12,529 nt of DNA from Paramuribaculum sp. (GTDB lineage Bacteria > Bacteroidota > Bacteroidia > Bacteroidales > Muribaculaceae): assembly GCA_029051835.1 (NCBI GenBank), contig JAIDKJ010000036.1, forward strand, positions 1-12,529, written 5' to 3'. The notes beneath the pieces were generated by a model. That model did not search any database, was not told where the DNA came from, and saw only the letters and a program-made list of their open reading frames with translations. Position 1 is the stretch's first letter. Each line of letters opens with the position of its first letter. A program made the position numbers and the translations under genes. Shown here piece by piece: positions 1-12,529 of the stretch.

Positions 1-1326
1 ATATACGATAAAATGCTTGCCTGGAAACGTTCCTCACAAGGCGATTCGGCATTACTTATCGAAGGTGCTCGACGAATCGGCAAATCAACTATCGCAGAGG
101 AATTCGCCAGGAATGAATATGATGACTATGTAATCATCGACTTCGCCACAGCCGACCAGTCGATCATCGACATTTTCAATCACATTTCGGACATCGACCG
201 ATTCTTTCTTGAATTGCAGACATTAACATTGAAAAGACTGCCACACCGAAAATCTGTCATAATTTTCGATGAGGTACAATTCTGTCCGAAAGCTCGTCAG
301 GCAATTAAATATCTTGTCAAAGACGGCAGATACGATTATATCGAAACCGGCTCACTCATCTCTATCAAGAAAAACGTAAGAGACATTCTGATCCCCAGCG
401 AAGAACGACGCATCAACATGTTTCCTATGGATTTCGAAGAATTTCTATGGGCCATAGGTAGAGCGCCGGTATTCGACCTTATCAGACACAGCTTTGATAA
501 CCTGAAGCCGATAGGCGAGTCTGTCAACCGCAATATATTGCGCGATTTCAGACTCTATATGCTCGTGGGCGGAATGCCACAGGCTGTCAACACCTATCTG
601 TCGACAAACGATCTCGCGGCCGTCGATGAAAAAAAACGCGACATCCTTGCTCTCTATGATGCCGACTTCAGAAAAATAGACCCGTCTGGAAGGGCTTCGA
701 CCATATTCAACCACATCCCGGCCGAACTGGCAAGAAATACATCCAGATATAAAATCGGAAGCGTTATTGAAGGCGCCAGACCCACACGTATGGGCGAATT
801 GTTTGCTGACATTGCCGATTCACGCACGGTCAACTTCGCATTCCACGCTAATGATCCCGGAGTAGGCTTTGCTTTTCATGCCAACTTCGACTATTTCAAA
901 ATGTTCCTTGCGGATACCGGACTTTTTGTGACTCTTGTATTTCGCGATCGTGACTTTACCGACAATGACCTATATCGCAAACTGTTGTCCGACAAACTAT
1001 CGGCCGATCTCGGCTATTTATATGAAAACGTTGTAGCGCAACTGCTTGCAAGTGCCGGGCACTCCTTGTATTATTACACTTTTAAGGAACGTACGTCGGA
1101 TGAGTCCGAACCCCGGTCGTATGAAATCGATTTTCTAATAAGCCGTAAGGATAAAATCTGTCCTATCGAGGTCAAATCATCGGGCTATAAGACACATAAA
1201 TCTCTGGACGAATTCCAACGGAAATTCTCATCGCGAATTCGGCAGAGATACCTGCTGTACACAAAAGACCTTCGCAAGGAGCACGACGTCATCTGCTTGC
1301 CCGTATATATGACCGGCCTGCTGTAA
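1..1326 (+). CDS. AAA_14 / DUF4143 family ATPase, 5'-truncated by the window
   Basis: P-loop ATPase of the AAA_14 plus DUF4143 type, a common Bacteroidetes family of unknown physiological role. Numbering from the ATG at 13, the Walker A motif is GARRIGKST (residues 18-26), Walker B is IIFDE (83-87), and the sensor-like ETGS follows at 111-114. The DUF4143 part fills the C-terminal half. Near the end lie EID (371-373) and EVK (386-388), spaced like a PD-(D/E)xK nuclease core; whether it cuts DNA is unknown. The reading frame stays open to base 1 (codons for IYDK precede the ATG), and relatives as I recall them have a short stretch before this point, so the true start is probably outside the window. 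It is visibly more AT-rich than all downstream genes, for example 28 G/C in bases 61-120, which suggests acquisition. The family call is firm; the function is unknown. Confidence 0.88.
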   Translation: MYDKMLAWKRSSQGDSALLIEGARRIGKSTIAEEFARNEYDDYVIIDFATADQSIIDIFNHISDIDRFFLELQTLTLKRLPHRKSVIIFDEVQFCPKARQAIKYLVKDGRYDYIETGSLISIKKNVRDILIPSEERRINMFPMDFEEFLWAIGRAPVFDLIRHSFDNLKPIGESVNRNILRDFRLYMLVGGMPQAVNTYLSTNDLAAVDEKKRDILALYDADFRKIDPSGRASTIFNHIPAELARNTSRYKIGSVIEGARPTRMGELFADIADSRTVNFAFHANDPGVGFAFHANFDYFKMFLADTGLFVTLVFRDRDFTDNDLYRKLLSDKLSADLGYLYENVVAQLLASAGHSLYYYTFKERTSDESEPRSYEIDFLISRKDKICPIEVKSSGYKTHKSLDEFQRKFSSRIRQRYLLYTKDLRKEHDVICLPVYMTGLL

Positions 1327-1337
1327 CTCCGAAGTCC

Positions 1338-1353
1338 GACATTGCGACATTGC
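1338..1353. repeat. Tandem 8-bp repeat downstream of the ATPase gene
   Basis: GACATTGC occurs twice back to back (1338-1345 and 1346-1353), starting 11 bases after the TAA stop of the ATPase gene. It shows no clear dyad symmetry and no following T-run, so it does not read as a terminator. It may be chance or a small slippage product. Confidence 0.5.
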
Positions 1354-1414
1354 GGGAATATTTCACATATTTTTTTCTATGGCATAAAAGCGGCGGTGAA
1401 AGAGGAGGATTTTG

Positions 1415-1422
1415 TAATTTTG
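1415..1422 (+). promoter_or_regulatory. Bacteroidetes -7 promoter box upstream of the AraJ-like exporter
   Basis: TAATTTTG matches the Bacteroidetes -7 consensus TAnnTTTG. No good TTTG -33 box is seen 19-21 bp upstream (that stretch is GC-rich), so the promoter may be weak or activator-dependent. Transcription would start near 1426, leaving a leader of about 82 nt that contains two direct repeats. The rest of 1327-1507 shows only these elements and the small 8-bp repeat. Confidence 0.55.
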
Positions 1423-1468
1423 CGGCCGGAAAAATCTGACCGATATCATCATTAGGTAATTCCACTTA

Positions 1469-1500
1469 AAATTACACATAGGTCGTAGAAATTACACATA
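1469..1500. repeat. Direct repeat pair in the exporter leader (candidate operator)
   Basis: The 12-mer AAATTACACATA occurs perfectly at 1469-1480 and 1489-1500, a 20-bp period. The second copy ends 7 bases before the exporter ATG at 1508. Two identical sites about two helical turns apart are typical of operators bound by a dimer or by two monomers on one DNA face. Because the likely promoter lies upstream, the sites could block elongation or translation, or act on RNA. No regulator gene is adjacent. Confidence 0.6.
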
Positions 1501-1507
1501 ATTTCGG

Positions 1508-2665
1508 ATGAATCACCGCAAAGGACTCCTGGCGATGGCGCTGGGAACATTCGCTCTCGGAGTGGCCGAATTCGGCATGATGGGCATACTGGGCGACGTA
1601 GCCCGTGGAGTCGACGTGTCGATAGTCAAGGCCGGACACCTCATATCGTTCTACTCTGCCGGAGTGGCATGCGGGTCGCCGGCGCTCGTGCTGCTCCACC
1701 GCATGCCGCTGCGGAGGCTTATGGTGCTTCTCGCTGTCCTGATACTTCTGGGCAACCTCATGGCAGCATTGTCGGCAGGCTTCGGGATGCTGCTCTGCGC
1801 GCGATTTCTGTCGGGACTGCCCCACGGAGCCTATTTCGGAGCCGGAGCCATTGTCTGCTCGCGCCTCGCCTCGAAAGGCCACGGAGCACAAGCCGTGGCG
1901 GTGATGGTCGGAGGAATGACCGTCGCCAATCTGGCGGGAGTGCCGCTGGCCACGCTTGTGGCCAACCTCGCCGGATGGCGCTTTGCGTTCGCCATCGTGG
2001 CCTTCATGGCGCTTCTGGCCGTGGTGACACTCCGTTTGTGGCTTCCGGCGCTCGATCCGGTGCCCGACACCGGCATAAAAGGCCAGTTCCGGTTTCTGCG
2101 CTCGCCGGCTCCGTGGCTTATCTACGGCGGCGTATTTTTCGGTCAGGCGAGCGTCTACTGCTGGCTCAGCTATATCGAGCCGATCATGACGCGCGTGACA
2201 GGCTTCTCGGGCGCGGCCATGACTTACGTGATGGTCATCGTCGGACTTGGAATGGTGGTCGGCAATGCCTGCTCTGGCAAACTCGCCGACCGCTACAGCG
2301 TGTCGGTGGTGTGCGGATCGCTTGCGGCGGCAATGGCTGTTGTGATGCCCGCCATATATCTGCTCGACGCGTTCAAGGTGCCGTCGCTGCTGCTTGCCTT
2401 CATTGCATCGTTCGGACTGTTCGGCATCGGAGGGCCGCTGCAATATCTGATCGTGAAGTTTTCCAAGGGTGGCGAGATGCTCGGAGGAGCCGGCATACAG
2501 ATAGCCTTCAATGTGTCCAACGCCGTGTCGGCATGGATCGGAGGAGCCGCCATCGGAGCCGGATGGGGATTAAGCTCTCCGGCACTGCTCGGAGTGCCAT
2601 TAGCTCTGGCAGGAGCCACATTCCTGTGGATGCTCCACCGCCGCTACGGCAGCGAGGGGGCCTGA
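1508..2665 (+). CDS. araJ: AraJ-like MFS efflux transporter (DHA1 type)
   Basis: A 385-residue inner-membrane protein of the Major Facilitator Superfamily with about 12 hydrophobic helices. As I recall E. coli AraJ, the match is strong along the length: the central segment FLRSPAPWLIY, the LPHGAYFGAGAIV stretch after helix 4 (AraJ: FPHGAFFGVGAIV), MTVANLAGVPL, VGLGMVVGN, and GGEMLGGAGIQIAFN near helix 11. AraJ-type proteins are predicted drug or sugar exporters driven by the proton gradient; the substrate is unknown even for E. coli AraJ, so the symbol states homology and not arabinose export. The start is the ATG at 1508, with no Shine-Dalgarno sequence, as usual in Bacteroidetes. It is probably transcribed alone, because the AT-rich gene upstream and convergent dgt downstream bracket it. 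It ends 5 bp before the dgt stop, leaving no space for a separate terminator. Confidence 0.9.
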   Translation: MNHRKGLLAMALGTFALGVAEFGMMGILGDVARGVDVSIVKAGHLISFYSAGVACGSPALVLLHRMPLRRLMVLLAVLILLGNLMAALSAGFGMLLCARFLSGLPHGAYFGAGAIVCSRLASKGHGAQAVAVMVGGMTVANLAGVPLATLVANLAGWRFAFAIVAFMALLAVVTLRLWLPALDPVPDTGIKGQFRFLRSPAPWLIYGGVFFGQASVYCWLSYIEPIMTRVTGFSGAAMTYVMVIVGLGMVVGNACSGKLADRYSVSVVCGSLAAAMAVVMPAIYLLDAFKVPSLLLAFIASFGLFGIGGPLQYLIVKFSKGGEMLGGAGIQIAFNVSNAVSAWIGGAAIGAGWGLSSPALLGVPLALAGATFLWMLHRRYGSEGA

Positions 2666-2670
2666 ACCGA

Positions 2671-4014
2671 TCAGTTGTTGATCTTCAGCGACATGCCGTT
2701 AAGACGGCGATAAAGATCGAGTGCATACACGTCGGTCATGCCCGACACATGGTCGACCACCGCCTGCACCTTGCCGTAGAGTGTCGGAGCGTCGACCTCA
2801 TATTGCTGAGGCACCTTCGACAGCAGCAGACGCGAATAGTTGAGCGTAGGATTGAGCACCGCATGGATCAGCTTCTCCATCAGGAAGGTGATGATCGACG
2901 TGCCCGCCAGTTCCAGATCCACCACATCGGGAGTCTGATAGATCTTATTCCACGACAGTGCGTTGCATGCGCGATAGCCGTCGCGCTCGCGCTCAGCGAT
3001 ATGATCCACCAGGCACCCCTCAAATTCGCCGGCAAGTATCGCCTCCTCATTGTCGGTGAAGGTGCGCGCGCAAGCCGCCACAAGCACCCCGATCACGCTC
3101 GACCGCAGATAGCCTATCTTCTCGTTGGGGTCATCCACCCGCTCCATGTTGCTGACGATGCGGCTACGGCGCTCCGGCTCGAAAAACGACAGCAGCAGCT
3201 CTATCACCTCGCCGGTGGCGAGCAGTCCGAGCTTGTGTGCGTCCTCTATATCCATCACCTCATAGCAGATATCGTCGGCAGCCTCCACAAGATACACCAG
3301 CGGATGTCGCGCATAGCGCAGAGTGCCTTCGTCCGACTGACGCCGGAGCATTCCCAGCTCGTCGGCCACGCGGCTGAAGTCGGCCTTTTCCGAAGTAAAG
3401 AACCCGAATTTGTTCTTCTCTCCGGCAAGCATCGATTCGTAGGGATATTTCACTATCGACGCCAGGGTGGAATATGTCATGGCAAACCCTCCGGGACGCC
3501 GCCCCTTGAAGCGGTGGGTGAGCAGACGGAATGCATTGGCGTTGCCCTCGAAATGGGTCAGGTCGGCCCACTGTCCGGGAGTCAGCTCAGCCTGTAGGCC
3601 GCGGCCCGCACCCTCGCTGAAAAATGTAGATATGGCCTTTTCGCCCGAATGTCCGAAAGGCGGATTGCCGAGATCATGAGCCAGACACCCCGCCGCCACG
3701 ATCTCTCCGATGGCATCGATCTTTCCCACCCAGGGCATGGAACCGTGCCGCTCACGGAGCACTATCGCCGCCTCCGTGGCGAGCGAACGCCCCACGCAGG
3801 CCACTTCGATGGAATGCGTCAGACGGTTGTGGACAAAGATGCTTCCCGGCAGCGGGAACACCTGCGTCTTGTTCTGCAGCCGGCGGAAAGGTGACGAGAA
3901 CACCAGCCGGTCATAGTCGCGCTGGAAGTCGCTGCGCACGCCGCGGCGCGGGTCGTGATAGTCTTCAAGCCCGAAGCGCTTGTCGCATATCAGGCGGTTC
4001 CAGTCCATTTTCAT
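2671..4014 (-). CDS. dgt: Deoxyguanosinetriphosphate triphosphohydrolase (HD superfamily)
   Basis: A cytoplasmic dNTPase that hydrolyses dGTP (and often other dNTPs) to the deoxynucleoside plus tripolyphosphate, affecting the dNTP pool and mutation rate. The HD-domain metal ligands are visible: H67 in RLTHS, H113-D114 in CLAHDLGNPPFGH, and the later Asp in EAADDICY (D247/D248). HFEGNANAFR (154-163) matches the conserved Dgt substrate-pocket stretch. At 447 residues it is complete, somewhat shorter than E. coli Dgt (505). The ATG at 4014 is used here; a second ATG two codons on (4008) gives an MDWNRL start and is equally plausible. It is the second gene of a minus-strand operon, 16 bp after the lipid kinase, with no promoter of its own. 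Its 3' end faces the AraJ-like gene. Confidence 0.93.
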   Translation of the reverse strand: MKMDWNRLICDKRFGLEDYHDPRRGVRSDFQRDYDRLVFSSPFRRLQNKTQVFPLPGSIFVHNRLTHSIEVACVGRSLATEAAIVLRERHGSMPWVGKIDAIGEIVAAGCLAHDLGNPPFGHSGEKAISTFFSEGAGRGLQAELTPGQWADLTHFEGNANAFRLLTHRFKGRRPGGFAMTYSTLASIVKYPYESMLAGEKNKFGFFTSEKADFSRVADELGMLRRQSDEGTLRYARHPLVYLVEAADDICYEVMDIEDAHKLGLLATGEVIELLLSFFEPERRSRIVSNMERVDDPNEKIGYLRSSVIGVLVAACARTFTDNEEAILAGEFEGCLVDHIAERERDGYRACNALSWNKIYQTPDVVDLELAGTSIITFLMEKLIHAVLNPTLNYSRLLLSKVPQQYEVDAPTLYGKVQAVVDHVSGMTDVYALDLYRRLNGMSLKINN

Positions 4015-4030
4015 AGCAGTCAGGTGTTTT

Positions 4031-5008
4031 TCAGCGCAGGCTGGGGTGGAATATACGGTTGATCGAATAGCGCGCCTCGCGTATCATCGAGACGATGGGA
4101 GTGATTATCGGACGGAATGGTCTTTCGTCGGGATTGGTATAGAGCCACAGCTGTCCGGGATGACAGCATATCTCAAGCGTTTCGCCGAGCGTCACCGGCT
4201 CGCCGTCGATATGCGCCGGCCCGGCATGTTTGCGCTCTATCGTGGCCGAAGCCACGCGTATCGTGTCGACCAGCGCATTGCGGTAGGTGTAGCCGGTCAG
4301 CGTATCCACGCCCACGAGCATCGTCGACAGCGGATTGCCGGCATGTATTATCGTGATGTCGAGCAGACCGTCGGTCATCGTGGCGCGCGGGGCTATGTAG
4401 ACGTTGTTGCCATATTGCGAGGCATTGCACACAGCCACAAGGAAAGCCTGTTCGGTGATGATCTGTCCGTTGGCGCGGATGGTATATTCGTCGGCATTGT
4501 AGTTGACAAACTGCCGTATCGCATTGTTGACATAGCTCACGAGGCCGCGGTGCTTCCCACGCGCGAAAGCGTCACTGACAGCCGCGTCGAATCCCACTCC
4601 GAACGTACAGAAAAACGGCTGTCCGTTGACCGAGCCGTAATCGCACGCCATCGGGCAGTCGCGGGCTATGATCTCGAGCGAGGCGCGTATATCCACCGGT
4701 ATATCGAGATGCCTGGCCAGACCGTTGCCTGAGCCGCACGGGATTATGCCGAGCTTCACCCGCGAGCCGCACAGCGCCGAAGCGGCCTCGTTGACAGTGC
4801 CGTCGCCGCCTGCGGCTATGACGGAGTCAAACCCTTCGTCGGCGGCCTGCCGCGCCAGTCGCGTGGCATCGCCGTGAGCCGTGGTCCATGCCGTTTCCAC
4901 CGTCAGACCGTTGTCGGCCAGACGCGAGGCCACCAGACCGTCCAGACCGCGCTTATTGCCCGTACCGGAGATCGGATTGATTATGAGCAGACATTTTTTC
5001 TTGTTCAT
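4031..5008 (-). CDS. YegS/BmrU-family diacylglycerol or lipid kinase
   Basis: A 325-residue soluble or peripheral-membrane kinase of the DAGK catalytic superfamily, which phosphorylates a lipid hydroxyl (diacylglycerol or related) with ATP and feeds phospholipid recycling. Seen in the sequence: IINPISGTG (9-17), the nucleotide loop GGDGTVNE (67-74), PCGSGNGLARHL (90-101), the DGLLD stretch (213-217), and HIDGE (266-270) of the second catalytic region. I chose the ATG at 5008 (MNKKKCLLIINP). An in-frame ATG at 5029 would add 7 residues, but it lies upstream of the start site predicted from the promoter box at 5017-5024. The family is clear; the exact lipid substrate is not. It is first in an operon with dgt. 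Confidence 0.9.
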   Translation of the reverse strand: MNKKKCLLIINPISGTGNKRGLDGLVASRLADNGLTVETAWTTAHGDATRLARQAADEGFDSVIAAGGDGTVNEAASALCGSRVKLGIIPCGSGNGLARHLDIPVDIRASLEIIARDCPMACDYGSVNGQPFFCTFGVGFDAAVSDAFARGKHRGLVSYVNNAIRQFVNYNADEYTIRANGQIITEQAFLVAVCNASQYGNNVYIAPRATMTDGLLDITIIHAGNPLSTMLVGVDTLTGYTYRNALVDTIRVASATIERKHAGPAHIDGEPVTLGETLEICCHPGQLWLYTNPDERPFRPIITPIVSMIREARYSINRIFHPSLR

Positions 5009-5016
5009 ACGGTGTG

Positions 5017-5024
5017 CAAAGTTA
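5017..5024 (-). promoter_or_regulatory. -7 promoter box of the lipid kinase-dgt operon
   Basis: CAAAGTTA on the plus strand reads TAACTTTG on the minus strand, a full match to TAnnTTTG. The predicted start near 5013 leaves a leader of about 5 nt before the ATG at 5008, so the mRNA is nearly leaderless. No good -33 TTTG is seen at a 19-21 bp spacing. Confidence 0.6.
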
Positions 5025-5046
5025 GGCATTTGTCGCCAAATATCAT

Positions 5047-5054
5047 TAAATTTG
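5047..5054 (+). promoter_or_regulatory. -7 promoter box of the glycosyltransferase gene
   Basis: TAAATTTG matches TAnnTTTG and ends 4 bases before the ATG at 5059, so transcription would begin at about the start codon (leaderless), or else translation starts at the in-frame ATG at 5083. A recognisable -33 box is missing. The box is 22 bp from the divergent kinase box, so polymerase footprints at the two would overlap. Confidence 0.55.
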
Positions 5055-5058
5055 CCGC

Positions 5059-6780
5059 ATGATTAAGTCACTCACGCTATATATGCGCCGCCATCCGGCG
5101 CTCCTTGTCGCCCTGCTGGCCTCACTGATGTTTCTGCCATGGCTCGGACTGCCGCTGTTCAATACCAAAGGGGAGCCGCGCGAGGCCATTGTGGCCGTAT
5201 CGATGCTCCAGAGCGGCGACTGGGTGCTGCCGGTATCGTTCGGAGGCGACATCCCCTACAAACCGCCGTTTCTGGCCTGGTGCATAGCCCTGCTGTCGTG
5301 GATAGCGGGAGGAGTGAGCGAATACACCTCCCGGCTGCCGTCGGCTCTGGCCGCGATAGCCCTTGCGGTGGCCACGCAGCGGTGGGTGCGCCGGGGAGGC
5401 GAATCGGCTGCGGCATCGGTAGTCACCGCTATGCTCACTGTCACATGCTTCGAAGTGTGGCGCGCCGCATCGGCCTGCCGTGTCGACATGGTGCTCACCT
5501 TCTTCATGGCCTCGGCCACGATGGAACTCAGCCGCTACGTGGCCGGACCGATGCGCCGGCTTCCGTGGGGCGCCGCGGCGCTGATGACCTGCGCCGTGCT
5601 CACCAAAGGACCGGTAGGCATGCTGCTGCCGTGCCTTGTGGCGGGAGTGGCCGGCCTTGTATCCGGGCGTTCTTTCTGGCCGCTGTTCAGAGGTCTGGCG
5701 CTGACCGGACTGCTCTCGCTCGTTGTTCCGGCTCTATGGTATGTGGCGGCATGGCGATCAGGCGGCGACGAATTTGTGCGCCTGGCCATGGAGGAGAATT
5801 TCGGCCGCATGACAGGCACCATGTCCTACGGCAGCCATGAGCAGCCGTTCTGGTATCCGCTGCTGACCATCCTTTGGGGCTGGGTGCCCTATACGCTGCT
5901 CGCACTGATGGCTCTCACTGCCGTCAGCCGATGCCGACGCCCCGCTCCGGGCGCGTTTAAGCCTGCCGCGCTGCTGGCCCGGCTGCGCGCACTCCCTCCG
6001 CTGACGCTCTACAGCGCCGTGGCGGCGGCAGTGATAGTGGTGTTTTTCTGCATTCCTAAAAGCAAGCGCAGTGTCTACCTGCTTCCGGCCTATCCGTTCC
6101 TGGGCTACCTGATGATGCTGCTCGTAGAGCGGCTGCGCGGAGCGGCTCCGATGCGCTGGTTTGTCGCTACGATGTCATCTCTGGCCATGCTTGTACCTGT
6201 AGCCGTATGGGTTGCCGCCGCGCTCCCCGCAAGCGTCGCGGCGTCGATGTCGCCCTCCACGGCCACCCAGTTTTCGGCCATAGCCTCGGCCGCCCTGAGC
6301 CTCAACGGCGTGTGGGCGCTCCCGCTATGCTTCGTCACCGGATTGTGGGGCTGGAGCGAGATCAGGCGTCGTGGCCGACGGCTCACGGAGGCCATGCTCG
6401 CCACTGTGACGGCCATCCTCCTGGCGCTATCGTCGGCCATACTGCCGCCGGTGCTTTCGTCCAAGAGCGACCTGCCGCTGGCCATAGCCGTCAGCGAGGC
6501 CGCACCCACCGGACCGGTCTACGAATTCCACACCGACCGGCTGATACGATATTATACCGTCAATTTCTATATCGGCGACCGTATGCGTCTTTTCGCCCGC
6601 GAGATGCCCACCAACGGATGGATCATCATCGACGAGCCCGACATCGAGGCATGGCGCGAAGCCTACGGCACGGCCTACACTCTCACCGAAGTCACCCCCT
6701 GGCACCGACGCAGCTGCGACACACGCCGCCAGCCCCACCTGATGCGGTTTGCCCGGCGCGCCGACGCGCCCTCACTCTGA
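5059..6780 (+). CDS. ArnT-like membrane glycosyltransferase (GT39/GT83 superfamily)
   Basis: A 573-residue polytopic inner-membrane protein, with about 11-13 hydrophobic segments and a short soluble C-terminus, of the PMT/ArnT superfamily. These enzymes transfer a sugar from a polyprenyl-phosphate donor to lipid A, protein or glycan on the outer face of the membrane. Seen in the sequence: the first periplasmic loop GEPREAIVAVSMLQSGDWVLP-like region (residues 38-58), in which E39 and R41 sit where ArnT has its DETR motif and the first acidic residue is replaced by Gly; IPYKPP (65-70), equivalent to ArnT's FEKPP; and PKSKRSVYLLPAYP (333-346), equivalent to ArnT's GKLPTYILP stretch. The donor and acceptor cannot be told from sequence. 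The ATG at 5059 lies only 4 bp after a promoter box; the ATG at 5083 is an alternative. The last 9 bp overlap the 3' end of phoH. Confidence 0.85.
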   Translation: MIKSLTLYMRRHPALLVALLASLMFLPWLGLPLFNTKGEPREAIVAVSMLQSGDWVLPVSFGGDIPYKPPFLAWCIALLSWIAGGVSEYTSRLPSALAAIALAVATQRWVRRGGESAAASVVTAMLTVTCFEVWRAASACRVDMVLTFFMASATMELSRYVAGPMRRLPWGAAALMTCAVLTKGPVGMLLPCLVAGVAGLVSGRSFWPLFRGLALTGLLSLVVPALWYVAAWRSGGDEFVRLAMEENFGRMTGTMSYGSHEQPFWYPLLTILWGWVPYTLLALMALTAVSRCRRPAPGAFKPAALLARLRALPPLTLYSAVAAAVIVVFFCIPKSKRSVYLLPAYPFLGYLMMLLVERLRGAAPMRWFVATMSSLAMLVPVAVWVAAALPASVAASMSPSTATQFSAIASAALSLNGVWALPLCFVTGLWGWSEIRRRGRRLTEAMLATVTAILLALSSAILPPVLSSKSDLPLAIAVSEAAPTGPVYEFHTDRLIRYYTVNFYIGDRMRLFAREMPTNGWIIIDEPDIEAWREAYGTAYTLTEVTPWHRRSCDTRRQPHLMRFARRADAPSL

Positions 6781-7767
6781 TGCCGGCGCCGACGTCGACG
6801 TCCCGGCAGGTGCTCCCCCGGCAGGTGCCGCAGCCGCATCGAAGCGCTCGTAAGCCTCCACTATGCGCTGCACCAGCGCATGGCGCACGATATCTTTCTT
6901 GCTGAATTCCACACGGCCTATCCCCTCCACTCCGCGGAGTATCTTCAGAGCCTGCACGAGGCCCGACTGCGTCGAACGCGGAAGGTCGATCTGCGTGGCG
7001 TCGCCGGTCACGATCATCTTGGCATTCATGCCCAGACGGGTCAGAATCATCTTTATCTGATGCGTCGTGGTGTTCTGAGCCTCGTCGAGCACTATTATCG
7101 CATCGTTGAGCGTGCGGCCGCGCATGAATGCCAGAGGCGCTATCTGTATCACCCCCGTTTCCATATACTCCTTGAGCTTCACGGCAGGTATCATATCCTC
7201 CAGCGCATCGTAGAGCGGCTGCAGATACGGATCGATCTTATCCTTCATGTCGCCGGGCAGGAAACCGAGCTTCTCACCGGCCTCCACCGCCGGACGCGAC
7301 AGTATGATACGCCGGGCCTCCTTGTTTTTGAGCGCCTTGACCGCAAGCGCTATGGCTATATAGGTCTTGCCGGTGCCGGCAGGACCCATGGCGAATGTCA
7401 GATCGTTGCTCCTGAACGCATCGACCAGACGCTGCTGGTTGGGCGTGCGCGCCGAGATAGGCTTGCCGTTGACGCCGAATATGATCACTCCGTCCGACTT
7501 CACGTCGCGGGGTTTCTCACCGCGCACTATATCGATGATCACATCCTCGGTCAGCTTGTTGTATTTCAGGCAATAATCCTCCAGTTCGTGGATTTTGCGC
7601 TCAAACTCAGCTGTTTCCTCGTCATCGCCTATCACCTTTATGACAGTGCCGCGCGCAGCCATCCGCAACTTCGGGAACAGATTGCGCACCAACTGCATGT
7701 TGCAGTTGTTCACACCATAAAAGCTCACCGGATCCACCCGGTCTATAATGACTATTCGCTCTATCAT
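6772..7767 (-). CDS. phoH: PhoH family ATPase
   Basis: A cytoplasmic P-loop NTPase related to the nucleotide-binding half of superfamily 1 helicases. Family members are linked to phosphate stress and RNA metabolism, and the biochemical role is still unsettled. Seen in the 331-residue product: Walker A GPAGTGKT (128-135), SRPAVEAGEKLGFLPGD (157-173), Walker B with IIVLDEAQN (224-232), the TGDATQIDLP motif (254-263), and QSGL (267-270). An N-terminal region of about 100 residues precedes the ATPase core, as in PhoL/YbeZ-like proteins. The last 21 residues are an Ala/Pro/Gly/Ser/Thr tail built partly by a 15-bp DNA repeat and appear dispensable. The ATG at 7767 follows a complete promoter by about 29 nt. 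It is convergent with the glycosyltransferase gene, with a 9-bp overlap of coding ends. Confidence 0.93.
   Translation of the reverse strand: MIERIVIIDRVDPVSFYGVNNCNMQLVRNLFPKLRMAARGTVIKVIGDDEETAEFERKIHELEDYCLKYNKLTEDVIIDIVRGEKPRDVKSDGVIIFGVNGKPISARTPNQQRLVDAFRSNDLTFAMGPAGTGKTYIAIALAVKALKNKEARRIILSRPAVEAGEKLGFLPGDMKDKIDPYLQPLYDALEDMIPAVKLKEYMETGVIQIAPLAFMRGRTLNDAIIVLDEAQNTTTHQIKMILTRLGMNAKMIVTGDATQIDLPRSTQSGLVQALKILRGVEGIGRVEFSKKDIVRHALVQRIVEAYERFDAAAAPAGGAPAGTSTSAPASE
6802..6828. repeat. 12-bp direct repeat inside the 3' end of phoH
   Basis: CCCGGCAGGTGC occurs at 6802-6813 and 6817-6828, a 15-bp period, so the reading frame is kept and the PhoH tail gains repeated Ala-Pro-Ala-Gly-Gly units. 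This looks like an in-frame duplication in a low-constraint C-terminus. Confidence 0.7.
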
Positions 7768-7799: not shown

Positions 7800-7831
7800 C
7801 AAAGTTAACATTTGTTTTCAACACCGTCAAA
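7800..7831 (-). promoter_or_regulatory. Complete Bacteroidetes promoter of phoH
   Basis: On the minus strand the -33 box is TTTG (plus-strand CAAA at 7828-7831). A 20-bp spacer and the -7 box TAACTTTG (plus-strand CAAAGTTA at 7800-7807) follow. Both match the Bacteroides consensus at ideal spacing. The predicted start is near 7796, giving a leader of about 29 nt. Confidence 0.75.
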
Positions 7832-7862: not shown

Positions 7863-7879
7863 TCGTCAAGGCGCCGCGT

Positions 7880-7911
7880 TTTGTTTTTTTGTGAAAATTT
7901 CATTAATTTTG
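7880..7911 (+). promoter_or_regulatory. Complete Bacteroidetes promoter of the exported propeller/caspase operon
   Basis: TTTG (-33) at 7880-7883, a 20-bp spacer, and TAATTTTG (-7) at 7904-7911 all match the consensus. The predicted start is near 7915, about 40 nt before the ATG at 7955. No comparable promoter is seen before the next two genes, so this one probably serves all three. Confidence 0.78.
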
Positions 7912-7933: not shown

Positions 7934-7954
7934 ACCACTGTGATAAATCCGGAT

Positions 7955-10045
7955 ATGATTCATTCTAAACTTATACCTTTAGCTATATCGTTGATTATCA
8001 GCGGGGGAGGGCATTTACACGCCTCTGAAACAGACTCACTGACAGGAGTAGGGATCGACAAGACTCTCGACTACCGGCTCAAAGAGCAGCCCCGACAGAT
8101 CGACAACTATCTCTATTCCATCTTCGCCGCGGCCGACGCCAACGTCTACAATCTGCGCGGATTCCCCATCGGCAAGATCAAAAAAACTCCCCTGTCGCTA
8201 AAAGTCAACCCCGCAGGCCATTCCTACGCGCTGCTGACCGGCGACGACAGAAACACACAGCTCGAAATCTCACCGATAGGCACGAGCAAGGTGCCTCGGC
8301 GCAAGATCCCGGCCACACATCCTACAGCCATAGCCTATACGGCCGACAGCCGTCTGCTCGTGGTGGCCGACGGACACTCGCTGCTGCTTTTCGACTCACG
8401 CACCGCCGAGCCGCGCGGACAGATCGCGCTATCGATCGCCGACACCCCCACGGCAGTTGCAGTCAGCCCCGACGGACGCTTCTGGGCCATAGCCGGAGGT
8501 GAAAACATCGAGATCATCAATGCTGAGGATATGAAACCGCTGACGGTCGTCAAGGCCGGATCGGCGGTGACGCATCTGGTATTCGATTCGGCCTCGTCGA
8601 CTCTCGGAGCCACGGTGGCCGAGCCGATGCTGCTCACATGGACCACCGCCGGATTCGAGCAGACAGGACGGTTCAGCCTCCCTGCGCCCGCATCGACGGT
8701 CGATTTCCATCCGCAAGGCAAATACGCCGCCCTCGCCATGCAGGGCGACAAGGTCTACATACTCAATCTGATCGAGCCTAAGGAGAACTACACCATTGCC
8801 GATCCGTCGGGCGGACTCGACCGTGCGCGCTTCATCACCGACGGCAAAGGCACACTGTTTCTGGCCCACACCACGCCCTCGTCGGTACGCTACAAGCGCA
8901 TAACCGGATTCACGCCCCACTTCACGAGAATGCTTGAGGACGAGCTCAACAGGCGCATGCTCGAATGGACGCGCATGAGGCCGATGGAAACCGACGAGCA
9001 GTATGCCGAGCGCGTCAACCCGGAGTCGACCGCACGGCAGAGAAAGCTCTTCGCCAACGAGATCGCCACATCGCTCGCGGGCGACCTCGTCAGCCACTCC
9101 GACGTCACCCTCGGAGGCTACAATCCCTCCACCGGAATGCTCGCCGTAGGCATGGGCAATCTCCCGTCGGTATACCTCACCGTGCCCGAAGAGGATGTGG
9201 AGGCATTCGGCAGCGGATCCGACATCGAATTCCGCAATCCGGTCTACGGACTGGCCGCCGACGACACCTTCGTGCTCATCTACGCCGAGGTCTACAACCG
9301 CAACAACGGCAAGACCTACGTGTTCGACAATCTCGACAACCAGAATCTCGACTATCTGGCCACCGACGACTCATTCATGTCGCTTGAGCTTGTCAGACAG
9401 TCGCAGCGCGAGGACGCGCGCCTCCAGGCCATGCGCGACGAGGTAGTCAAGGCCGCCATGAGCGACAGCGTCATTTCAGAACACACCACCATCGACGTCA
9501 ACGCCGGCATTGTGCCGTCGACCGGAGCCGACGGACGCCGCACCAACGACTACCGCATCGACTTCACCTACACGGTCGATCCCGACTTTTCGGCCAAAGA
9601 GGATTTCGCCCCGGGCAAATATCTTGTGGAGGAGTCGCCGGCAGCCACAGCCATGCTATCCATAGTCAGAAAAGCATTCGAGGGTGAGTTCGCGCGCTAT
9701 GTGGCGCCGGGCAAACGCGTGAAAATACTGCTCACCGGCACCGCCGACGCGCTCCCCATCACACGTCCGCTACGCTACGACGGATCTATGGGCGAATGGG
9801 CCGACGAACCATGCCGGATCGACGGCGACCTGTCGGCCATAAGCGTCGACAAGGCCGGAGGCATTGCCACCAACGAGCAGCTCGCATTCATGCGCGCGCA
9901 GGCCGTCAAGGCGCAGCTTCAGAAGAGCATCGCCCCGCTTGCGGAGATGCAGACCGTCTACGACTTCTCCATACGTCTGAGCAAGGAGAAAGGTGGGGCA
10001 CACCGGCGCATCAATATCTCGTTCGTGTTCCCCGATGCGCTCTGA
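7955..10045 (+). CDS. Exported WD40-like beta-propeller protein with divergent OmpA-like C-terminus
   Basis: A 696-residue predicted periplasmic or outer-membrane-associated protein. Residues 1-24 form a signal peptide (MIHSKL, a hydrophobic core, then LHAS). About 55-315 carry repeated beta-propeller blade patterns, for example PTAIAYTADSRLLVVADG, PTAVAVSPDGRFWAIAGG and STVDFHPQGKYAALAMQG. About 320-560 is a region I cannot assign, beginning with a charged helix (EDELNRRMLEWTRMRPMETDEQYAERV) and then beta-rich sequence. Residues 588-692 resemble an OmpA-like domain: TGTAD (594-598), NEQLAFMRAQAVKAQL (640-655), which follows the NxxLSxxRAxxVxxxL signature with Ala for Ser, and HRRINI (683-688). 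OmpA-like domains bind peptidoglycan. The ATG at 7955 is preferred because it gives a compact signal peptide; a GTG at 7940 would add five residues. It is the first gene of the operon, 37 bp before the caspase gene. Confidence 0.75.
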   Translation: MIHSKLIPLAISLIISGGGHLHASETDSLTGVGIDKTLDYRLKEQPRQIDNYLYSIFAAADANVYNLRGFPIGKIKKTPLSLKVNPAGHSYALLTGDDRNTQLEISPIGTSKVPRRKIPATHPTAIAYTADSRLLVVADGHSLLLFDSRTAEPRGQIALSIADTPTAVAVSPDGRFWAIAGGENIEIINAEDMKPLTVVKAGSAVTHLVFDSASSTLGATVAEPMLLTWTTAGFEQTGRFSLPAPASTVDFHPQGKYAALAMQGDKVYILNLIEPKENYTIADPSGGLDRARFITDGKGTLFLAHTTPSSVRYKRITGFTPHFTRMLEDELNRRMLEWTRMRPMETDEQYAERVNPESTARQRKLFANEIATSLAGDLVSHSDVTLGGYNPSTGMLAVGMGNLPSVYLTVPEEDVEAFGSGSDIEFRNPVYGLAADDTFVLIYAEVYNRNNGKTYVFDNLDNQNLDYLATDDSFMSLELVRQSQREDARLQAMRDEVVKAAMSDSVISEHTTIDVNAGIVPSTGADGRRTNDYRIDFTYTVDPDFSAKEDFAPGKYLVEESPAATAMLSIVRKAFEGEFARYVAPGKRVKILLTGTADALPITRPLRYDGSMGEWADEPCRIDGDLSAISVDKAGGIATNEQLAFMRAQAVKAQLQKSIAPLAEMQTVYDFSIRLSKEKGGAHRRINISFVFPDAL

Positions 10046-10082
10046 CCCTAAATCACCACAATTCACCCGCTGACACACTATC

Positions 10083-12008
10083 ATGACCTACCGACATATC
10101 CTCACTCTCATAGCCGTGGCCCTGTGCGCCACACTCAATCTCGGCGCGCAGACCGACGTCGAGAAAGCCGATCGCGACTTCGCCGAGTTCCGGCGCATAC
10201 AGTCGGCCGGCAATGCCGACGGAGCCGCCTACGGCCGTCTGCGCGACGCCTACGCGGCCTACCGTCAGGCCATCGCCGACACCCGGCCCGACACCCCGGA
10301 GCGGCAGCATCTGCGCGCGGCTCTGCGCGACGTGTTCCCCTACCTGCGGCAGGCAGCCTACTACTACGCGGCCGCCAACGATCAGGCGATGGTGCTACGC
10401 TTCGCGGCCGACTATATCGACCTGTCGCTGCTGCCGGCTATGGGCGAAGACCGGCTCAACGAGTCGCCGGGCTACCCCGTGCTTGCCAATCTCGCCGCCA
10501 CCAACATCTACAACCGGGGCGACTATCAGAACGCCATACTCTACTTTCAGGCCTACCTCTCGAGCGGCGACACCGCCAACCGCGAACTCGCCTTCGAGGG
10601 ACTCGCACGCAGCTACTACGAGCTGCGCAACTACGACAACGCCGTATATATAGCCGCACAGGGCGCCGCCACATATCCGCGCAACTGGAATATGCTCATC
10701 GTAGGCATAGAGTCGGCCGGACGCAACGGCAACGACACCCACATGGAGCAGTTTCTCGAAAAGGCGCTCGCCATCAGGCCGGGGCACAACGGGCTGCTCG
10801 AATACAAAGGCAAAATGCTTGAACGCATGAAGCGTTACGACGAGGCGGCGGCTACGTTCCGCACTCTCGCCGCAGCCAATCCGTCGAGCCTCGACTACGC
10901 CTGCCATCTGGCCTTCGACCTCTACAACAGCGGGGTCAAGGCCATGCCCTCCGACTCGGCACGCATGCGCTTTCAGGAGGCCATACCGCTGCTTGACGAC
11001 ATCCTGGCCAACTCCCCCTACGCCGTCAACGTGGCCCACGCCCTGGCCGTGTGCTACAACATGACCGGACAGACCGATAAGCTTCGCCAGGCCAACGCCA
11101 CGCTCACCGCACTGCGGGCGCCCGAAGTGGCGCAGGAGTCCGTTCCGGCCGAGGAGAGCGCCTACATGCCGCAGGTCAACTACACTCCCGCCGTCAGCCA
11201 GCCGGTGGCGGCAGCCGACCAGCCGGCCGACGTCGACATCAACATACCGATCGCCAAGGCTGAGCGAGCCGACACCTACGTGATGATCATCGGCAACGAA
11301 AACTACAAATATTTCTCCGACGTGGCCTACGCCCACCGCGACGGCAAGACATTCGCCGAATATTGCCGCAAGGCGCTCGGAGTGCCCGCCGACAATATCC
11401 GCGAACGCTACGACGCCACACTGTCGGAGATCCGCGAGCCGCTGCGCTATCTCGAAGAGAAGTGCCGCATGAATCCCGACCGTCTCAACATCATCGTCTA
11501 CTACGCCGGCCACGGAGTGCCCGACGTGGCCCGGGGCACAGCCCATCTGCTCCCCACCGACGCATCGGGCACCGACTTCGAGTCGTGTCTGGAGCTCGAC
11601 CGCCTCTACTCGATGCTCGACGAGATGCCGGCGCGAAGCGTGACAGTGTTTCTCGACGCCTGCTTCAGCGGAGCCACACGAGGCAACGAGATGCTCTTCG
11701 CAGAGCGTTTCGTCGAATACGAGGTGGAGGACGCCGTAGCCAAAGGAAAGACAGTGGTGTTCAGCGCCACCACCGGCAAGCAGACAGCCATGGCCTACGA
11801 CGACAAGCGCCACGGATTCTTCACCTACTATCTCCTCAAAAGCCTGCAGGAAAGCGGAGGCGAAATCACCCTCGGCGAACTCGCCGAGAGGCTGACAAGG
11901 GAGGTCGACAACAAGGCTTTTGACAAGAAAAACAAGCATCAGACACCCACCGTCAACGCATCGGCCGCCCTCGGCGACGAATGGAAGTCGCGGCGCCTCT
12001 CCGACTGA
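10083..12008 (+). CDS. Exported TPR-caspase family protease (peptidase C14-like)
   Basis: A 641-residue predicted exported cysteine protease. Residues 1-23 are a signal peptide (cleavage after LGAQ or nearby). About 30-345 are helical with TPR-like repeats, clearest at 133-165, 168-200 and 236-268. About 346-392 is a Pro/Ala-rich linker. Residues 397-637 are a caspase-fold domain: YVMIIGNENY (399-408), the AHRDGKTFAEY stretch with D420, the catalytic His in YYAGHG (H477), and the catalytic Cys in FLDACFSG (C527), followed by VVFSATTGKQTAM and HGFFTYYLL. Both catalytic residues are intact, so an active enzyme is expected. D420 and D525 sit where metacaspases have acidic S1 residues, which suggests cleavage after Arg or Lys rather than Asp. 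TPRs imply a protein partner, possibly the co-encoded propeller protein. The start is the ATG at 10083; no separate promoter is seen in the 37-bp gap. Substrate unknown. Confidence 0.88.
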   Translation: MTYRHILTLIAVALCATLNLGAQTDVEKADRDFAEFRRIQSAGNADGAAYGRLRDAYAAYRQAIADTRPDTPERQHLRAALRDVFPYLRQAAYYYAAANDQAMVLRFAADYIDLSLLPAMGEDRLNESPGYPVLANLAATNIYNRGDYQNAILYFQAYLSSGDTANRELAFEGLARSYYELRNYDNAVYIAAQGAATYPRNWNMLIVGIESAGRNGNDTHMEQFLEKALAIRPGHNGLLEYKGKMLERMKRYDEAAATFRTLAAANPSSLDYACHLAFDLYNSGVKAMPSDSARMRFQEAIPLLDDILANSPYAVNVAHALAVCYNMTGQTDKLRQANATLTALRAPEVAQESVPAEESAYMPQVNYTPAVSQPVAAADQPADVDINIPIAKAERADTYVMIIGNENYKYFSDVAYAHRDGKTFAEYCRKALGVPADNIRERYDATLSEIREPLRYLEEKCRMNPDRLNIIVYYAGHGVPDVARGTAHLLPTDASGTDFESCLELDRLYSMLDEMPARSVTVFLDACFSGATRGNEMLFAERFVEYEVEDAVAKGKTVVFSATTGKQTAMAYDDKRHGFFTYYLLKSLQESGGEITLGELAERLTREVDNKAFDKKNKHQTPTVNASAALGDEWKSRRLSD

Positions 12009-12070
12009 ACCGCCCCGACTCCGACCGGATTATTCACAAAAAACCAATCCATATTTCAACCACTATCCTT

Positions 12071-12529
12071 ATGAAGACAAGACTTTTTCTTGCTGCCGCA
12101 GTCATGATGCTCATGGCGGCCGCATCGCCCGCCGTCGCGCAGCAGACCGGCGACGGCAAGCAGGCCGTCACCCGCGTGGTCAAAGGAGCCGTCATCGACA
12201 AGAACGGCAACCCCATACCCGGAGCCACAGTCCGCGCCACCGGCGGAGCCGAAGTGACCGTAACCGACGCCGACGGCACCTACTCGATCGAAGTGCCCGT
12301 ATGGCTCAAGAGCCTCACCGCATCCTACACCGGCATGATGGACAAGAAGATCAAGCTCACCCCCGCCGGCACCACCATATTCACCCTCAAGCCCGAACGC
12401 GGACAAACTTACGGCTTCATCAACCTTGTCGGCACACAGGTCTGGCAGGTCAAATCCAGCATAAAAGGCGTACCCGCACAGACGCAGCTCGGCATCATGG
12501 GCGGCGCCTACCGCAACTGGGGCGGCTAC
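12071..12529 (+). CDS. Exported CarboxypepD_reg-like protein, 3'-truncated by the window
   Basis: An open frame of 153 codons from the ATG at 12071 to the last base, without a stop. Residues 1-24 are a signal peptide (MKTRLFL, hydrophobic core, AVAQ). About 36-107 form a carboxypeptidase-regulatory-like beta-sandwich (CarboxypepD_reg/CarbopepD_reg_2): VVKGAVIDKNGNPIPGATV with the G-x-V-x-D-x-x-G-x-P-x-PGA-x-V pattern, then TVTDADGTYSIEVP. Such domains sit at the N-terminus of many Bacteroidetes outer-membrane proteins, including SusC-like transporters and surface adhesins. The sequence after residue 110 (GFINLVGTQVWQ, then GIMGGAYRNWGGY) is Gly/aromatic-rich and could begin a beta-barrel, but too little is present to decide. 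It starts 62 bp after the caspase gene with no promoter or terminator visible, so it is probably co-transcribed. Confidence 0.8.
   Translation, partial: MKTRLFLAAAVMMLMAAASPAVAQQTGDGKQAVTRVVKGAVIDKNGNPIPGATVRATGGAEVTVTDADGTYSIEVPVWLKSLTASYTGMMDKKIKLTPAGTTIFTLKPERGQTYGFINLVGTQVWQVKSSIKGVPAQTQLGIMGGAYRNWGGY

Follow-up and report, generated by a model that had tools for sequence, protein, structure and literature searches.

The window analysed here, a stretch of 12,529 bp, is the whole of contig C291, which comes from a 2.1 Mb genome of 485 contigs that is 84% complete. Its right-hand part holds three successive genes on the plus strand (Table 1), with intergenic gaps of 37 bp between genes 1 and 2 (10046-10082) and 62 bp between genes 2 and 3 (12009-12070), so the reading frames bear out the preliminary description in gene order and spacing. 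For gene 1, a GTG is in frame at 7940, ahead of the ATG at 7955. The description of the locus as a three-gene cluster needs a qualification: genes 1 to 3 are real, but gene 3 is incomplete at the contig end, and a DUF4384-like ORF follows it on another contig of the same genome, C20. The neighbours at positions 1-7767 are ordinary, and Pfam identifies them as an AAA_14/DUF4143 ATPase, an MFS transporter, an HD-domain hydrolase, a DAGK/YegS-type kinase, a PMT-type glycosyltransferase, and PhoH.

A pattern search found a Bacteroidales-type promoter upstream of gene 1. The pattern, TTTG-N20-TAATTTTG, follows what we take to be the Bacteroidales -33/-7 consensus and is expected by chance 0.04 times per 12,529-nt stretch. 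On the plus strand, neither the gap between genes 1 and 2 nor that between genes 2 and 3 contains TAnnTTTG, and no terminator-like sites were found between the three genes; the earlier claim of a single promoter ahead of gene 1 and none between the genes is borne out by this search. A weak plus-strand terminator-like site (7867-7883) adjoins the gene 1 promoter. A second Bacteroidales-type promoter on the minus strand (7800-7831) lies back to back with the first and is directed toward the divergent phoH gene (6772-7767, minus strand).

Genes 1, 2, and 3 all begin with a hydrophobic leader, as read from the sequence. Across the complete ORFs from the window and from 80 related loci, a test for a hydrophobic 12-mer near the N-terminus was passed by 77/80 gene 1 ORFs, 78/79 gene 2 ORFs, and 28/28 CPD-family ORFs, and a lipobox-like motif was seen in 7, 3, and 3 ORFs of these families, respectively. 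The signal peptides that had been assigned to each gene are upheld as hydrophobic leaders in all three; the 12-mer test is crude and is not a dedicated signal-peptide predictor.

Table 1. Features of the cluster and of related loci. Positions are those of the window unless a locus is named.
Feature	Position	Strand	Description
Bacteroidales-type promoter	7880-7911	+	TTTG-N20-TAATTTTG; pattern search; upstream of gene 1
Gene 1	7955-10045	+	696 aa; ATG start; open reading frame; WD40 propeller, middle domain, OmpA_C-like domain
WD40-type propeller	8042-8908	+	Gene 1 residues ~30-318; read as seven-bladed
Middle domain	8939-9352	+	Gene 1 residues ~329-466; homologue within long-form caspases of related loci
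Divergent OmpA_C-like domain	9467-10030	+	Gene 1 residues ~505-692; insertion of ~34 residues
Gene 2	10083-12008	+	641 aa; open reading frame; TPR-caspase (C14), short form
TPR region	10482-11084	+	Pfam TPR matches; gene 2 residues 134-334
Caspase domain	11280-11960	+	Gene 2 residues 400-626; PF00656 Peptidase_C14, 3.5e-21
Predicted catalytic His477 (YYAGHG)	11511-11513	+	His in 77/77 relatives spanning the site (78th relative truncated and left out)
Predicted catalytic Cys527 (DACFSG)	11661-11663	+	Cys in 77/77 relatives spanning the site (78th relative truncated and left out)
Gene 3 (5' part)	12071-12529	+	CarboxypepD_reg; open reading frame, runs off contig end
CarboxypepD_reg domain	12179-12376	+	Gene 3 residues 37-102; PF13620, 7.6e-13
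Overlap with contig C20	12453-12529	+	77 bases identical to the start of C20 (locus L234)
F500 examples in related loci	L187:14103-15569; L184:14240-15748

The Pfam matches of gene 1 were to propeller-type models and DUF7165 only, every one under its cut-off. For its C-terminal part, the OmpA model PF00691 gave 15.0 bits (E 0.032) against a cut-off of 27.2, and among 36 C-terminal pieces of gene 1 proteins the same model matched 15 weakly at E<=0.1, with a best value of 4.8e-4. An OmpA_C-like motif, L-S-x2-R-A-x2-V-x3-L, has been described (PMC5053529), and gene 1 bears it in the form L[SA]x2RAx2Vx3L, with Ala replacing Ser. PorE is described as contacting peptidoglycan through Asp, Asn, and Arg residues that include Asn584 and Arg591 (PMC7192894). 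The corresponding positions of gene 1, D598, N640, and R647, are each conserved in 79/80 relatives, and the Asn-to-Arg spacing of 7 equals that of PorE. In the structural model the domain is predicted to run strand-helix-strand-(extra hairpin)-helix-strand-strand. A profile search found no OmpA chain among solved structures, and the fold-search lists for gene 1 were dominated by the propeller. From sequence and structural model together, the gene 1 protein consists of a WD40 propeller that a caspase-associated middle domain connects to a predicted OmpA_C-like domain, in which the peptidoglycan-contacting residues are retained. Its earlier label as a propeller-OmpA protein survives on the conserved residues and motif, although the OmpA score stays under the Pfam cut-off. 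Only 5 of the first 59 proteins from a protein search, the long gene 1 relatives, have a name in their source, and this is either 'WD40 repeat domain-containing protein' or 'hypothetical protein'. One locus that appears in two collections (L189 and L105) has gene 1 split between one ORF of 266 aa and another of 405 aa, and the gene may be broken or misassembled there.

Gene 2 scores 76.4 bits with the C14 model, against a curated cut-off of 21.4, and both residues of its putative catalytic dyad are invariant in the relatives that span them (Table 1). These signatures mark gene 2 as a TPR protein whose caspase His/Cys dyad is predicted to be intact, as had been proposed when it was first read as an intact caspase-type protease.

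Gene 3 was assigned as a CarboxypepD_reg protein, and the domain is indeed present, within what is just the 5' part of a gene of about 320 aa. We located its continuation at the start of C20 by searching the same genome with the gene 3 of a relative. The 77-base overlap is found on just two contigs of this genome, C291 and C20, and across it the frame continues to a stop at C20:581. The piece of gene 3 on C20 matches no Pfam family. A terminal Phe is present in 18/19 sequences of the gene 3 family, and in one relative (L091) the barrel model PF13505 gives a match under its cut-off (3.8e-5, 24.4 bits against 28.7). We consider the C-terminal part to be barrel-like, a candidate outer-membrane barrel.

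Directly after gene 3, C20 carries the DUF4384-like ORF (554-1513, a mechanical ORF call). A DUF4384-like gene was first seen in 14/14 short-form loci (defined below), and its counterpart on C20 was found afterwards. This ORF scores 218.9 bits with a profile built from these loci and 22.4 bits with Pfam DUF4384, below the cut-off of 27, a value that one relative exceeds at 27.2. Beyond it on C20 lie a weakly DMP19-like ORF, then a cyclophilin, then an M16 protease.

To collect related loci from named genomes, an alignment of gene 1 alone served as query; 139 relatives were confirmed, and the best 80 were retained. A separate protein search for gene 1 relatives scored 8000 candidates. The gene 1 proteins of these best 80 of 139 loci share 32-48% identity (best segment), and depositors' labels on their records include Muribaculaceae, Bacteroides, Odoribacter, Paludibacteraceae, and Alistipes. 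In 78/80 of them a caspase gene lies directly 3' of gene 1 on the same strand, with a median gap of 28 bp (range -29 to 224). The two exceptions are L138, where the caspase is directly upstream of gene 1, and L159, where the contig stops just past gene 1. The loci are related by descent and are not independent. Tree distances of gene 1 and gene 2 correlate with r = 0.93 over 76 sequences, source included, a value that plain vertical descent would also give. In two loci (L128 and L139) gene 1 is immediately preceded by a caspase-family ORF (525-526 aa) on the opposite strand; extra copies occur in L137, which has two caspase-family ORFs, and in L152, which has a second gene 1.

Our family and order searches covered 99, 149, and 295 genomes sampled from larger groups. 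Gene 1, whole or in part, was detected in 23/99 family genomes, source genome counted, 2 of these 23 having the middle domain only. Besides the source locus, all 23 of the longer family loci, which overlap with the best 80 of 139, have the gene 1-caspase pair. Caspase matches are more widespread, in 41/99 family genomes versus 23/99 for gene 1, so it is common for a caspase relative to occur where gene 1 does not. At the level of the order, 134 of 295 genomes have some match to the gene 1 profile, mostly partial, and 4/295, the source genome among them, have a near full-length gene 1; at the other three of these loci (L193-L195, from other families) a caspase follows gene 1 in 3/3. Gene 1 was found in 0/5 other genomes of the same genus, and we therefore regard the presence of the cluster as patchy. 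Three family genomes (G159, G166, and G208) have two gene 1 loci each. The family of the source genome, taken to be the Muribaculaceae, is dominant in the mouse gut (PMC6381624).

Besides genes 1 and 2, other families recur across the 80 loci: DUF4384-like in 70, S210 in 58, F500 in 51, CHASE2 in 29, X2 in 28, and CarboxypepD_reg in 23, counts that are lower bounds because many contigs end. These families were called with profiles built from the loci themselves on mechanical ORFs with unrefined starts, so some DUF4384-like and F500 ORFs overlap their neighbours. S210 proteins are small (about 210 aa; e.g., L184:13590-14222) and exported, and two members scanned (L103 and L112) had no above-cut-off Pfam match. 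F500, also exported, shows the pattern DCEDR...H...D, its C-terminal half resembles LapG/transglutaminase, and its members that were scanned had no confident Pfam match. X2 is an exported family without a Pfam match, which we labelled FecR-like by eye.

The caspase occurs in two forms. Complete short-form caspases (649-695 aa, n=14 loci) are accompanied by CarboxypepD_reg in 14/14 and by DUF4384-like genes in 14/14, with CHASE2 in 1 and X2 in 0. Long-form caspases (808-935 aa, n=60) are accompanied by CarboxypepD_reg in 9, DUF4384-like in 55, S210 in 50, F500 in 46, and CHASE2 in 26; Odoribacter lunatus (L187) is a long-form case. On the survey of adjacency that the preliminary description had called for, the order of gene 1 and caspase is conserved well beyond a few close strains. 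All three families occur together throughout the short-form loci, and CarboxypepD_reg is present in at least 23/80 overall. The source genome also contains part of a long-form cluster on a 4,624-bp contig (G000:C235, L112), with a caspase cut at its 5' end, a DUF4384-like gene, an S210 gene, and the start of an F500 gene.

In the long form an additional domain separates the TPR region from the caspase. Profile comparison of this domain with the middle domain of gene 1 gave an hhalign probability of 99.0 (E 4.7e-18, 135 columns), compared with at most 1.2% in five control pairs. At the profile level, the shared domain is a fusion-type link between the gene 1 scaffold and the long-form caspase. 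Gene 2 belongs to the short form, without the shared domain, and therefore the link applies to it by descent only.

Taken together, we believe that the locus is probably an operon for an exported, cell-wall-tethered, extracytoplasmic caspase module of the Bacteroidales. That the cluster is one functional unit of the envelope is very likely; that this unit performs scaffolded proteolysis is likely to a lesser degree. Gene 1 would be held on periplasmic peptidoglycan by its OmpA_C domain, while the propeller would hold or sense a partner; propeller and middle domain together could recruit the TPR-caspase, docking it beside the outer membrane, and the gene 3 protein would provide the end at that membrane. 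When a signal arises in the wall or envelope, the caspase would cut one or more envelope proteins, possibly including its partners from the cluster. In the fuller long-form loci, input would probably come from the CHASE2 protein, and the second enzyme would probably be an exported protein resembling transglutaminase/LapG. Discussion of bacterial homologues of caspases has mostly centred on cell death and on signalling in the cytoplasm. If our proposal is true, prokaryotic caspases would acquire a definite function in the envelope and a specific set of partners; with this conserved gene set, the idea of a caspase pathway in the bacterial envelope can be put to the test.

A more elaborate version would be an 'apoptosome-like' extracytoplasmic pathway of gut Bacteroidales, in which a peptidoglycan-bound WD40 scaffold senses the state of the wall and both recruits and activates a periplasmic TPR-caspase that remodels the outer-membrane surface, with a LapG-like second protease and a CHASE2 sensor added in fuller versions. 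We put this forward only tentatively, as a possibility on the unlikely side.

Among the other explanations, the one that fares best is a conflict or regulated-death system, modelled on the cytoplasmic caspase-NACHT-WD40 proteins, in which the caspase, once triggered, would put to death its own cell or a competing one, the WD40 and TPR parts serving as sensors. The patchy presence of the cluster and the genomes with two gene 1 loci would fit such a system, and the general caspase model of PADLOC matches gene 2 (31.7 bits, 2.2e-8). The DUF4384-like protein has one weak PADLOC hit (15.1 bits). In prokaryotic metacaspases the domains most often found as partners are WD40 and TPR, and for those that are extracellular a role at the surface or in fratricide has been suggested (PMC3501461). 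However, nearly all members have export-like leaders, the scaffold has a predicted wall-binding (OmpA_C-like) domain, no NTPase, nuclease, or pore-forming part was found in the representatives scanned with Pfam, and no PADLOC model matched genes 1 or 3 at E<=0.01. We consider this explanation unlikely.

Less probable again is an accessory branch of the T9SS or PorE-like envelope machinery, with the caspase processing secreted cargo. The module types are those of PorE (PMC5053529) and the source genome has a PorE, but the PorE model fails on gene 1, the propeller is of a different type, and the Pfam scan named no gene of the window as a T9SS part. We give a similarly low probability to envelope-stress or wall-status signalling, in which a signal released by proteolysis would reach the inner membrane (CHASE2 and DUF4384-like proteins) and the caspase would be a regulator, not a processing enzyme. 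The CHASE2 domain serves as a sensor outside the cytoplasm (PMC5192318), and the frequency of CHASE2-family genes and exported X2 genes across the 80 loci agrees with a signalling role; the near absence of both from the short-form loci, the type found here, does not. That the genes are chance neighbours with no joint function is contradicted by the 78/80 adjacency at deep divergence and by the shared middle domain, and can be dismissed as highly improbable.

The module that we propose resembles several known systems in part. PorE (PG1058) of the T9SS is periplasmic and combines TPR, beta-propeller, CarboxypepD_reg, and OmpA_C-like modules (PMC5053529), and its three peptidoglycan-contacting residues (PMC7192894) are retained in gene 1. 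In contrast, PorE is a single protein without a protease and has a TolB-like propeller model, while the domains of the cluster are split over three genes. Identity with PorE was rejected: the NCBIfam PorE model had no match to genes 1 and 2 at E<=0.1, and on gene 3 it gave 12.4 bits (E 0.033) against a cut-off of 600. Since the genome has a separate PorE of its own on contig C100 (846.6 bits), PorE is an analogy only. The preliminary description saw the PorE module set spread over three proteins; this is right for the module types, but the cluster is not PorE and its propeller is of another type.

LapG-type periplasmic cysteine proteases have no counterpart beside the source cluster; the LapG-like members of related loci have no Pfam match among those scanned, and their best Foldseek E-value is only 1.8e-3. 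The CHASE2-FecR biofilm operon of Burkholderia contaminans likewise has a CHASE2 protein adjoining an exported protein, but that CHASE2 protein is itself a histidine kinase, accompanied by a response regulator, and the text makes no mention of a caspase (PMC5192318).

Prokaryotic metacaspases and orthocaspases share the C14 His/Cys dyad and the TPR and WD40 partners (PMC3501461); protease activity with a basic P1 preference is expected of them (PMC6426788). Some metacaspases have N-terminal helices, perhaps leaders, and some are in operons with surface genes, but none of the operons in the available text of that source pairs a WD40-OmpA scaffold, a CarboxypepD_reg-barrel protein, and a DUF4384-like protein (PMC3501461). 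Among the matches listed in our search of the open-access literature, with subscription journals and preprints outside it, the gene set is undescribed. Metacaspases with TPR or WD40 domains, and operons that contain metacaspases, were already known; what is apparently new is the set formed by an exported caspase, a WD40-OmpA scaffold, a CarboxypepD_reg protein, and a DUF4384-like protein.
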